Origin: Bacilli bacterium
GTDB lineage: Bacteria; Bacillota_I; Bacilli_A; RF39; UBA660
NCBI GenBank assembly: GCA_017938725.1
Contig: JAGBAW010000009.1
Location: 1-48,796 of the forward strand
Direction of reading: 5' to 3'
Length of the DNA stretch: 48,796 nt
This document shows, piece after piece, positions 35,613 to 39,385 of the stretch. The notes under the pieces are model-generated. The model was not told the DNA's origin. It did not search any database and saw only the letters and a program-made list of their open reading frames with translations. A program made the translations under genes and the position numbers. The stretch's first letter is position 1, and each line of letters begins with the position of its first letter.

Positions 35613-36659
35613 TTATTTTAATAAATTAGTAAAGTCAAAATAACTATTTTTAGTACTGTCTTGTTTAGGATATTTTGAGTAATTATTAAGCTTTACTTCT
35701 TCCTTATCTCCTTTACTATTTACATTAATTACTTCTTCTATTTTATCTATTATAAACTTACCATACTTAGAGTTAATATCTTCAATATTTCTTGATACAA
35801 TATATATCTTATTTTTTAATTCAACTGAAGTTTCTAATAAATCTTCAAAATTAGTTATTTTCATTAAGGAATCAAAATTATCCAATATGAAATTAAAAGG
35901 TATTTTATTTAACTCAGTTATTTTAAATATTTCATTAATAACTGAATTAGTTAATTTTGCATATTCATTATTTCCTAATACAAAAATAGCTGTTTTCTCA
36001 TTTACTTTACTTAAATTTATCTCATTTGAACATAATAAATTTAATAAATTCTCAGTAATAATATATTTATTTAATTCTTGTTTTAAAACAGATATTATAC
36101 CTCCTCTTGTTTCTATAGGAGATAATGCAGTTCCAGATACTAGCATATATTCAGGACTCATAATATCTAGATTACTTACATACTTCTGAAACTTATCATA
36201 GTTATCCTTATTTAAACCTGAAACCATTAATTGAATGCTACCTAAATTTATTTTATTTTCATCATTACATTCATTAAATAGAATTAAAATTAATCCTGAT
36301 AAATAATCCGCAGCTGAATCTTGCCAAAATGGATCCATTACATTCTGTATGCTCATAATACTGCGTGAAAAATCTTTTATTAATTTAATTGCAATATCTT
36401 TTTTTCCATTTTTATAATATTTATATGGTAATAATAATGGATTAAAACCATTTGATAAAGTAGAATCTTTAAAATTAATAACATATGCCTTATATCCATT
36501 ATCAATTAACTCTTGCATATAATTTTTATAGTATTCTTCTTTATTATCTACTATTAATAAATTTTCGTTATTTTGTATTAATTTATTAACTTCTTTAAAC
36601 ATAATATCTTTTGTTTTACCAGAAGATATTTTTCCTAATATTAAATTTGTATTTTTCAT
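35613..36659 (-). CDS. Orphan VirD4/TraG-like ATPase, soluble, with altered Walker B
   Basis: 348 residues. Walker A is GKISSGKT at residues 9-16. The following strand LLIVDNKEEYY, the NGFNPLLL motif near residue 70, and PFWQDSAADYLSGLILILF near 110 are typical of VirD4/TraG coupling proteins of type IV secretion. The block aligned with the family Walker B (LLDEFANLG) reads FILDNFDSL near residue 260, so the catalytic Glu is Asn. The N-terminal membrane helices of VirD4 are absent. No relaxase or other conjugation gene is nearby. It follows the MerR gene by 4 bp with AGGAGAGG before the ATG, so the two form an operon. Confidence 0.75.
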   Translation of the reverse strand: MKNTNLILGKISSGKTKDIMFKEVNKLIQNNENLLIVDNKEEYYKNYMQELIDNGYKAYVINFKDSTLSNGFNPLLLPYKYYKNGKKDIAIKLIKDFSRSIMSIQNVMDPFWQDSAADYLSGLILILFNECNDENKINLGSIQLMVSGLNKDNYDKFQKYVSNLDIMSPEYMLVSGTALSPIETRGGIISVLKQELNKYIITENLLNLLCSNEINLSKVNEKTAIFVLGNNEYAKLTNSVINEIFKITELNKIPFNFILDNFDSLMKITNFEDLLETSVELKNKIYIVSRNIEDINSKYGKFIIDKIEEVINVNSKGDKEEVKLNNYSKYPKQDSTKNSYFDFTNLLK

Positions 36660-37152: not shown

Positions 37153-37644
37153 TTATATTTTTACCCTCTCTATAATTCTAATTTTCATTTTTTTGTTCGC
37201 TACATCATATGAACAAATATCACCTATTTTCTTTTTATATATTGCTTTCCCAATCGGACTATTTAATGTTATTTCACATATATCTAGCTCCTCATTAGGA
37301 ATAAATTTACCAGTTAATTTAATAATTTCATTTTCTATATCATCTTCTGAATATATAAATTCAATTTTAACAATATCATTTATATTTACAAGATTTTCAT
37401 CATATGTATCATTTATAACTTTTAATTTTTTTGATTGTTCTAGCATTGTTTTAATATTATTATCTATCATTCTATTAACTCGCATTGCTTCTTCATATGC
37501 AGGGTTATCATGCCAGCCATCTCCAACATAATCATTATAAGCTTTGCTTAAAGTGTTTGCATTAGTTAAACTTGAATTTTTAAGATCTTCAAATTTTTCA
37601 TAGAATTGCTTATATCCTTCTTCAGTAACTAATATTTCGTTCAT
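37153..37644 (-). CDS. GreA/GreB-family transcription factor
   Basis: 163 residues, the size of GreA. The N-terminal coiled coil (about 1-75) has at its tip GDGWHDNPAYEEA in place of the GreA GDxxENAEY; acidic residues are kept but spaced one residue further apart. The C-terminal domain has the FKBP-like ending NSPIGKAIYKKKIGD typical of Gre factors. Gre factors enter the RNA polymerase secondary channel and stimulate cleavage of backtracked RNA. This variant tip suggests a paralogue rather than the housekeeping GreA. AAGGAAGTGAT precedes the ATG. Confidence 0.8.
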   Translation of the reverse strand: MNEILVTEEGYKQFYEKFEDLKNSSLTNANTLSKAYNDYVGDGWHDNPAYEEAMRVNRMIDNNIKTMLEQSKKLKVINDTYDENLVNINDIVKIEFIYSEDDIENEIIKLTGKFIPNEELDICEITLNSPIGKAIYKKKIGDICSYDVANKKMKIRIIERVKI

Positions 37645-37780: not shown

Positions 37781-38686
37781 TTAATTTTCAATTTCTATAT
37801 CTCCACAATCATTTTCTATCTTTAAAGTAATATCTGACTTATGATAATTATTATTTATTTTAACATCTCCTAAATCAGTTTTAGCATCTATATATACATC
37901 TTTAATATTATTTATTCTTATATCACCATAATCATTAACTATTTTAGAGTTTTCAGTAAGACTAATTGTATCAATTTTAATATCACCACAATCATCTTTT
38001 ATATCTAAATATTTATTTATTTTTTTAATTATTATATATCCATAACTATTTCTAACATTTAAATTATTTACAGTTCCGATTTTAACATCTCCGCATTCTT
38101 CCTCAACTTTAGCATTATTTGCATTATTAATTTCTATGTCACCATAATTATTTTTAACATTAATTTCAGATGCTGATTCAATAATTACATCACCACAATC
38201 TTCCTCAATATCTAGTTTTGCATTATTAAAACTTTCTACTTTTATGTCGCCATAATTATTATTTATTATAATATTTTTATCGAAATTTTCTGGAATATAA
38301 ATAACTAATTTTGATTTTCTATTAAAACAAAAACCAATACATTTTTTATTTTCAACATTAACTTCTAATATTCCACCATCATTTTTTACATCATGTTTTT
38401 TTAATTTATCTTCATCACCATATATCATTGTTTTTATATTATTATTAGTATTTCTTTTAATTTCTATATCTGATGAATCAACATTTATTTTTATATCAGT
38501 AAAATTATTATCATATTCTTTTTCAAGTAATAAATTAGTACTTGCTTTATCATTAAAATCAAATCTAAAATTTTTTAATCCACCTAATCCACCTTTTAAT
38601 GCAAATATTAAAAATGTAATAAAAAATAAAACTATGATTGATAATAAACATATTAAAGTTATAATTAATGGTTTATTATTCTTCAT
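37781..38686 (-). CDS. Membrane-anchored DUF4097 beta-helix protein with Tyr/Cys ladder
   Basis: 301 residues from the ATG at 38686 (AGGTGGTGAT before it), overlapping the upstream regulator by 11 bp. One membrane helix near residues 9-30, then a DUF4097-type domain. From about residue 140 it consists of repeats of about 18-20 residues, each holding a turn of the form [N/D]-x-[YC]-GD-[IV]. The third position alternates: NNYGDI, EDCGDV, NNYGDI, EECGDV, NSYGYI, DDCGDI, NDYGDI, TDLGDV, NDCGDI. A parallel beta-helix outside the membrane would stack Cys and Tyr on alternate rungs. DUF4097 proteins often pair with XRE or LiaR-type envelope stress regulators, as here. Confidence 0.8.
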   Translation of the reverse strand: MKNNKPLIITLICLLSIIVLFFITFLIFALKGGLGGLKNFRFDFNDKASTNLLLEKEYDNNFTDIKINVDSSDIEIKRNTNNNIKTMIYGDEDKLKKHDVKNDGGILEVNVENKKCIGFCFNRKSKLVIYIPENFDKNIIINNNYGDIKVESFNNAKLDIEEDCGDVIIESASEINVKNNYGDIEINNANNAKVEEECGDVKIGTVNNLNVRNSYGYIIIKKINKYLDIKDDCGDIKIDTISLTENSKIVNDYGDIRINNIKDVYIDAKTDLGDVKINNNYHKSDITLKIENDCGDIEIEN

Positions 38687-39287
38687 TTTTATCACCACCT
38701 TTTAACATAAATATAAGTTTTACTATTTCTTCAACTAATCCATTTATTATAAATATAATCCATGTAATATGCCATGCCATTGTTATAAAACTTACAAGAA
38801 AGTATATTATTACAGATATTATACCTATAATTTCGTTTATTTGTTTTATAGTTTTTTCTTCTTTAGTAAGTTCATGTTTTTCTTTTTTATTTACTATAGA
38901 ATTATATACTATAATACCAGTTGCTACTGCGATTATAATAAGAAATATACAGAATCCTAAAATTGGACTATTTAATATTGTTGAAGAAAATATTAACCAT
39001 ACTACTGAAAAAATATATAAAAATACAGATATACCTATATTCCTTGCACTATTTATCTTTACATTTTTATTTGCATTTTCAATAATATCTTTTTTACCTG
39101 TTAAAAGTTCATCAGTTGTAATATTATAAAATTCACATATTGGAACTATTTTATCAAAATCAGGGGTTGATTGATCTGTTTCCCATTTTGATACAGTTTG
39201 CCTTGTTACATTTAAAACATTTGCAAGTTCTTCTTGTGATAAATTTTTTTCTTTTCTTAATTTTAACAATCTTTCTCCAATTGTCAT
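38676..39287 (-). CDS. XRE-type HTH regulator with membrane domain
   Basis: 203 residues. Residues 1-62 are a classic HTH_3 domain (LLKLRKEKNLSQEELANVL, then VTRQTVSKWETDQS). After a linker come four membrane helices in two pairs (about 82-130 and 152-195). Regulators of this make-up in Bacillota often control envelope genes from the membrane. AGAGGTGT precedes the ATG; its stop overlaps the start of the DUF4097 gene, so the two are translated together. The DUF4097 protein may be its sensor or target, which is inference. Confidence 0.85.
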   Translation of the reverse strand: MTIGERLLKLRKEKNLSQEELANVLNVTRQTVSKWETDQSTPDFDKIVPICEFYNITTDELLTGKKDIIENANKNVKINSARNIGISVFLYIFSVVWLIFSSTILNSPILGFCIFLIIIAVATGIIVYNSIVNKKEKHELTKEEKTIKQINEIIGIISVIIYFLVSFITMAWHITWIIFIINGLVEEIVKLIFMLKGGDKNEE

Positions 39288-39357
39288 AATAACACCTCTT
39301 TCAAATAAAATTATAATATTTTTTTCAGTTGCAATCTACCAAACATACTTTGAAATT

Positions 39358-39385
39358 TGTCAACCATGCTTAACATATTATATTT
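39358..39385 (+). promoter_or_regulatory. Probable promoter of the 39456 gene
   Basis: TTGTCA (39358-39363), 16 bp, TATATT (39380-39385). The same bases read as TTGACA on the other strand, in front of the divergent XRE gene. Confidence 0.4.

Follow-up and report, generated by a model that had tools for sequence, protein, structure and literature searches.

A conserved Tyr/Cys ladder in a Toastrack (DUF4097) protein encoded beside a membrane XRE regulator in uncultured Bacilli

Toastrack (DUF4097, PF13349) proteins have been described as right-handed, single-stranded beta-solenoids that are anchored in the membrane and associated with membrane-proximal transcription factors (Ravi et al. 2024, PMC11237479). 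In the Listeria operon lltR-lmo0600-lmo0601 (PadR-DUF1700-DUF4097), the PadR protein is autorepressing, and its mutant shows 100-150-fold derepression (PMC6624303). LiaG, from an envelope-stress locus, is a DUF4097 protein with a membrane anchor, and the Lia/PSP systems include PspA and PspC. Two publications disagree on the side of the membrane on which the DUF4097/Toastrack domain lies (PMC9239133 and PMC11237479). Interior Cys ladders are known from the beta-helix of the fucoidan lyase FdlA, where they occupy consecutive coils 4-8 and have a structural role (PMC9410043).

Here we analyse a Toastrack gene in a 48,796-nt stretch of DNA (the window; contig JAGBAW010000009.1) from a 1.07-Mb assembly that is 90% complete. 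The UBA660-type family behind our comparisons is represented by metagenome assemblies alone. Our overall reading, which we hold at a probability of about 0.66, is that the Tyr/Cys ladder of this protein serves core packing and that the protein and its XRE-4TM partner form a PspA-free, one-component envelope-stress module, autoregulated through a conserved promoter element.

The Toastrack gene and its XRE-4TM partner

37781..38698, minus strand: Toastrack (DUF4097) membrane-anchored protein, 305 aa (ORF, Pfam PF13349, AF2, Foldseek)
38597..38674, minus strand: its N-terminal transmembrane (TM) helix (AF2 helix 5-30 of the 301-aa form; hydropathy)
38676..39287, minus strand: XRE-family regulator, HTH_3 at residues 8-61, C-terminal membrane domain of about four TM helices (Pfam HTH_3 4e-16, hydropathy)
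38697..39050, minus strand: C-terminal TM domain of the XRE protein, residues 80-197 (homology to the L102 membrane protein)

The Toastrack reading frame starts at GTG 38698, with an in-frame ATG at 38686. An earlier note, made from the letters of this DNA, had assigned the product to DUF4097, and PF13349 bears this out with 92.4 bits against a cut-off of 22.9 (E 3.7e-26). Because searches of PDB sequences with phmmer and with a profile gave no sequence relative, we relied on fold comparison. The AF2 model (pLDDT 90.3) was matched by Foldseek to 4QRK (probability 1.00, E 4.8e-08) and 3PET (TM 0.66, target), and the closest solved folds, 4QRK, 3PET and 4OPW, are all of DUF4097 type. The protein is thus placed among the single-stranded beta-solenoids, in which equivalent positions stack as had been supposed. 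The earlier note also put the solenoid outside the membrane; charges flanking the TM helix are ambiguous on this topology, since 47 of 82 proteins have the more positive charge on the N-side.

The membrane-bound XRE regulator that had been predicted directly upstream is present, and the Toastrack gene begins before the XRE gene has ended. Among 81 homologous loci with enough upstream DNA, an XRE-4TM gene lies immediately upstream in 78, with an overlap of mostly ~11 nt. The remaining three are L020, L102 and L103; L102 and L103 have another membrane protein at this place, and in L102 its gene is preceded by a PadR gene. The TM domain of the window XRE protein is homologous to the C-terminal TM domain of this membrane protein (L102:2248-2859; E 7e-22, with 40% identity across 126 columns), which makes the XRE protein look like a fused stand-in for PadR and a HAAS-type protein. 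"HAAS-type" refers here to position and layout, the Pfam HAAS model giving no match to the L102 protein.

Like the Listeria lltR operon and other PadR-HAAS-Toastrack loci (PMC6624303, PMC11237479), the window pair joins DNA-binding, multi-TM and Toastrack parts under autoregulation, which is putative on the window's side, and the TM domain is homologous to that of L102. It differs in joining HTH and TM domain in a single protein, leaving two genes instead of three. The pair lacks the PadR wHTH and a HAAS match, carrying an HTH_3 of XRE type instead, with the TM part alone in common. XRE partners are absent from the main text of the Toastrack study (PMC11237479), and XRE pairing was not clearly seen among Toastracks outside the family, one of which (L113) belongs to a PadR-HAAS arrangement. 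Our search of the literature on XRE proteins with DUF4097, LiaG or BceAB found nothing further. The window's genome does contain a second Toastrack gene (contig C5, ladder YCYAYCLLC), and an XRE gene precedes that one too.

The likeness to LiaG extends to the membrane-anchored DUF4097 domain, but the LiaG model matches the window protein weakly (equivalog NF049997, 88 bits against a cut-off of 285). Furthermore, PspA_IM30 (PspA/LiaH) was detected in none of 40 genomes, including the 90% complete genome of the window, while the control was positive in 9 of 14. No PspC domain was detected in the window's genome or the family relatives searched; an XRE-PspC fusion exists in G032. The window's genome and the sampled family relatives therefore differ from Lia/PSP systems, which have both proteins.

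It should also be noted that a divergent GreA-like gene (37153-37644) and a lone conjugative coupling-protein-like gene (T4SS-DNA_transf, 35613-36659) lie just 3' of the Toastrack gene. Neither has a tie to the findings reported here.

The promoter element and its distribution

39328..39376, minus strand: conserved 50-bp promoter element, putative XRE operator, ATGTTAAGCATGGTTGACAAATTTCAAAGTATGTTTGGTAGATTGCAAC (75 aligned sites)
39310..39315, minus strand: -10 hexamer TATAAT, 12-13 nt 3' of the element (sequence)

The element has the consensus ATGTTAA-N4-(A/G)GTTGACAAATTTC-N11-GGTAGA-N2-GCAAC, in which TTGACAAATTTC and GGTAGA-N2-GCAAC are the conserved blocks, and its dyad symmetry is only weak. 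A distance of 12-13 nt to the -10 hexamer is the most frequent among the 75 sites. With up to two mismatches allowed, 66 of the 386 family genomes carry the element (reversed-pattern control, 0). A Toastrack match is present in 107 genomes, and 62 of the 66 are among these; in two of the other four the site is at a contig end. The model R1, applied to 79 genomes of which nearly all are Toastrack-positive, detected the element in 78. The lone exception, G110 (locus L103), is a locus without the XRE gene.

This conservation and co-occurrence suggest that the XRE-4TM protein binds the element and most likely autoregulates the XRE-Toastrack operon. We infer that repression is the more likely direction of control; activation is possible as well, since the element stops 12-13 nt short of the -10 hexamer and reaches upstream from there. 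The Toastrack protein, made from the same message, would be anchored beside the XRE protein and would sense or scaffold at the membrane, such that an envelope disturbance would presumably alter XRE activity.

We scanned the window's genome for the element by patterns and a sequence model, which returned exactly three sites: 39328-39376, one on contig C37 and a partial one on contig C38. The second (C37:17779-17828, L179) stands before a MacB-type ABC exporter of 763 aa (ABC_tran + FtsX). The third (C38:37950-37986, L129) is a partial or related element before an XRE-multiTM gene, as is also seen in G001 (L132). MacB-type ABC exporters with a site occur in G262 and G272 too, and the element precedes DrrA-type ABC operons in G026, G283 and G378. 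In some genomes, including that of the window, the same XRE control may thus reach antimicrobial-resistance-type ABC exporters. Such a wider regulon would be a feature of a minority, as most genomes have the self site only.

The single element copy in most genomes with the XRE-Toastrack pair, together with the name "putative adhesin" given to relatives in PDB entries, would also suit a structural or adhesin locus whose element serves its own promoter and that has no stress regulon. We regard this as unlikely, given that several genera have further sites ahead of ABC exporters, that such sites also precede XRE-PspC and other XRE-membrane regulators, and that the literature places DUF4097 proteins in Lia/Psp-type loci.

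Several further arrangements were observed in the course of these scans. The C38/G001 protein has at least 486 aa, with an XRE HTH, several TM helices and a C-terminal domain, and a pyruvate-kinase-like gene lies upstream. In L171 (G032:C18) an XRE HTH-PspC fusion follows a variant of the element, tying XRE regulators to PSP-type parts, and in L161 (G338:C13) a copy of the element has a LiaF-like gene and another DUF4097 gene in the 2 kb downstream of it. A sister element, ATGTTAAAA-N3-TTTGACAAATTTCCAAAG, precedes separate XRE genes with TM segments (L173-L177, L216, L221, L223-L226). Half-element matches of the form ATGTTAAAA..TTTGACAAATTTCC precede a different set of TM-bearing XRE genes and were not counted as members. 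The sister element suggests that membrane XRE regulators may be a family of self-controlled proteins with diverging operators.

Conservation of the Tyr/Cys ladder

37805..38254, minus strand: nine-rung ladder Y149 C168 Y185 C202 Y219 C237 Y257 L276 C298
38327..38341, minus strand: C-x3-C loop CIGFC, residues 120-124, in the N-terminal cap, conserved (relatives)

The order Y-C-Y-C-Y-C-Y-L-C over nine turns is exactly as the earlier note wrote it. Its turn motif, (Y/C)-G-D-(I/V), fits seven of the nine to the letter, the exceptions being rung 5 (YGYI) and rung 8 (LGDV). If seven places hold four Tyr and three Cys, the chance of strict alternation in a single protein is 1 in 35. Since the pattern recurs across relatives, we do not attribute it to chance.

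We read 84 distinct relatives, of which 57, all from uncultured Bacilli, are of Y/C type (51 complete). Alternation is conserved among them, and 20 of the 51 have YCYCYCYLC exactly. In the complete set, the odd rungs of the first part are mostly Tyr (rung 1, Y48/F3; rung 3, Y47, otherwise L/F; rung 5, Y42, otherwise F/L), and the even ones are, with rare deviations, Cys or Ala (rung 2, C39/A8; rung 4, C38/A12; rung 6, C50). Rung 7 is more varied (Y26/L16/F8), rung 8 is nearly always Leu (L48) and rung 9 mostly Cys (C48). Across all 57 proteins, Cys is found at rung 6 in 56 and at rung 9 in 53, and neither Cys nor Ala ever occurs at rungs 1, 3, 5, 7 or 8. Mutual information between parity and residue at the ladder position is 0.93 bit, compared with at most 0.12 bit for each of nine alternative splits of rungs 1-6.

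The ladders of other relatives, from the family and the rest of the class, are uniform Ser or Thr, or rarely Met/Leu, from which the alternating ladder of the window protein differs. In a quick tree with many weak forks, for which the ladder columns were left out, the Y/C proteins cluster together and 3 changes are required, a number as low as this being reached in 0 of 500 shuffles. Inside the cluster, two lineages have uniform A/V (AA-AAAVVV) or M/L (CM-MMMLLM) ladders, a concerted change. The ladder codons TAT, TGT, TTT and TTA (Y, C, F and L) are mostly single-base neighbours.

Packing versus chemistry in the ladder

The alternation looks like an interior packing ladder of big and small residues that would fill a column of constant width in the core. 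Ahead of each G-D turn, at the inner corner, Tyr (with Asn at position -2) would alternate with Cys or Ala (often with Glu at -2). Positions -6, -4, -2 and 0 have inward parity, position 0 sharing that of the hydrophobic -4 and -6. Parity and composition of the ladder side chains, as read from the sequences, would fit interior stacking. The proposed column resembles that of FdlA in being a structural Cys column inside a beta-helix, with the interior location predicted for the window protein, but the Cys of FdlA sit on consecutive coils whereas those of the window alternate with Tyr (PMC9410043).

Position -2 alternates too, being Asn on odd rungs and mostly Glu on rungs 2 and 4 (parity signal, 0.51 bit). 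We looked for coupling of this Glu to the neighbouring Tyr in the ladder relatives and found none that was clear. A Glu here is odd for a core, and solvent exposure at the corner could account for it. The polar -2 residues (N/E) of the Y/C clade, with an often acidic -1, raise the alternative that the ladder is a surface stripe of Tyr/Cys with Asn/Glu, an adhesin or receptor face that binds glycan or lipid II, as ligand-binding solenoids can have Tyr stripes. The residue at position 0 makes this improbable: it is hydrophobic practically always in the Y/C clade and uncharged in every class, it has the parity of the core positions, and its C/A swaps match volume, not binding. In S/T-type proteins, charge never occurs at either 0 or -2.

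A two-rung repeating unit, as the earlier note proposed, did not emerge from the comparison of rungs. No clear parity signal appears at positions other than -2 and 0. In a given protein, rungs of the same parity are hardly more alike (identity 0.233) than rungs of opposite parity (0.223), while orthologous rungs reach 0.381. With the parity signal confined to these two positions and rungs hardly alike at period two, we conclude that there was no recent two-rung duplication. Unit duplication is a common growth route of repeat proteins, and L037 lacks two rungs in phase (YC--YCFLC); even so, relatives have lost single rungs, and it is very unlikely that the alternation is a mere trace of recent tandem duplication, free of selection for alternation itself.

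The idea of a metal, disulfide or redox function, also put forward in the earlier note, fares no better. On the tree, the ladder residue switches among Cys, Ala and a large one, in either direction, at least 12 times at rung 2 and at least 10 times at rung 4. The L069 ladder (YAYAYATIV) has no Cys, and its AF2 model (pLDDT 90.3) has a strand layout much like that of the window protein. Beta-solenoids usually rise 4.8 Å per coil. One repeat is one coil, judged from single-rung losses in relatives and from solved folds (PMC11237479), so like residues two rungs apart would be separated by ~9.5 Å; Cys at this spacing should be too far apart for a disulfide. No relative has Cys on every rung, and S/T-type proteins, which lack ladder Cys, have the same XRE partner and element. 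Because proteins with Ser, Thr or Met ladders share this partner and element, the type of ladder is not needed for the regulatory link. Taken with these observations, chemically active ladder Cys, whose stacked thiols would bind metal, form disulfides or sense redox and signal to the XRE protein, are highly improbable, even with four of the protein's seven Cys in the ladder, those of rungs 6 and 9 nearly invariant, and a conserved C-x3-C loop in addition (kept in 54/57 Y/C-type, 11/16 S-type and 1/8 T-type relatives). The Cys of rungs 6 and 9 appear constrained beyond what packing alone demands; that they and the C-x3-C loop form a thiol/metal switch inside the solenoid, altering Toastrack and hence the XRE regulator, is the reading to which we give the least credence, though if true it would make the protein a redox-responsive envelope sensor in gut Bacilli.

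Read as core packing, the ladder is a clear natural case of a packing rule for beta-solenoid cores, in which a column is all Ser, all Thr, mostly Met, or big/small. The column changes as a whole, which would be of use in solenoid design and in reading repeat proteins. For this uncultured Bacilli family, the analysis defines a compact XRE-4TM and Toastrack module with a sequence-defined control element, itself a ready marker for such regulatory modules. With its candidate exporter targets, this module makes the role of DUF4097/LiaG-type proteins directly testable.
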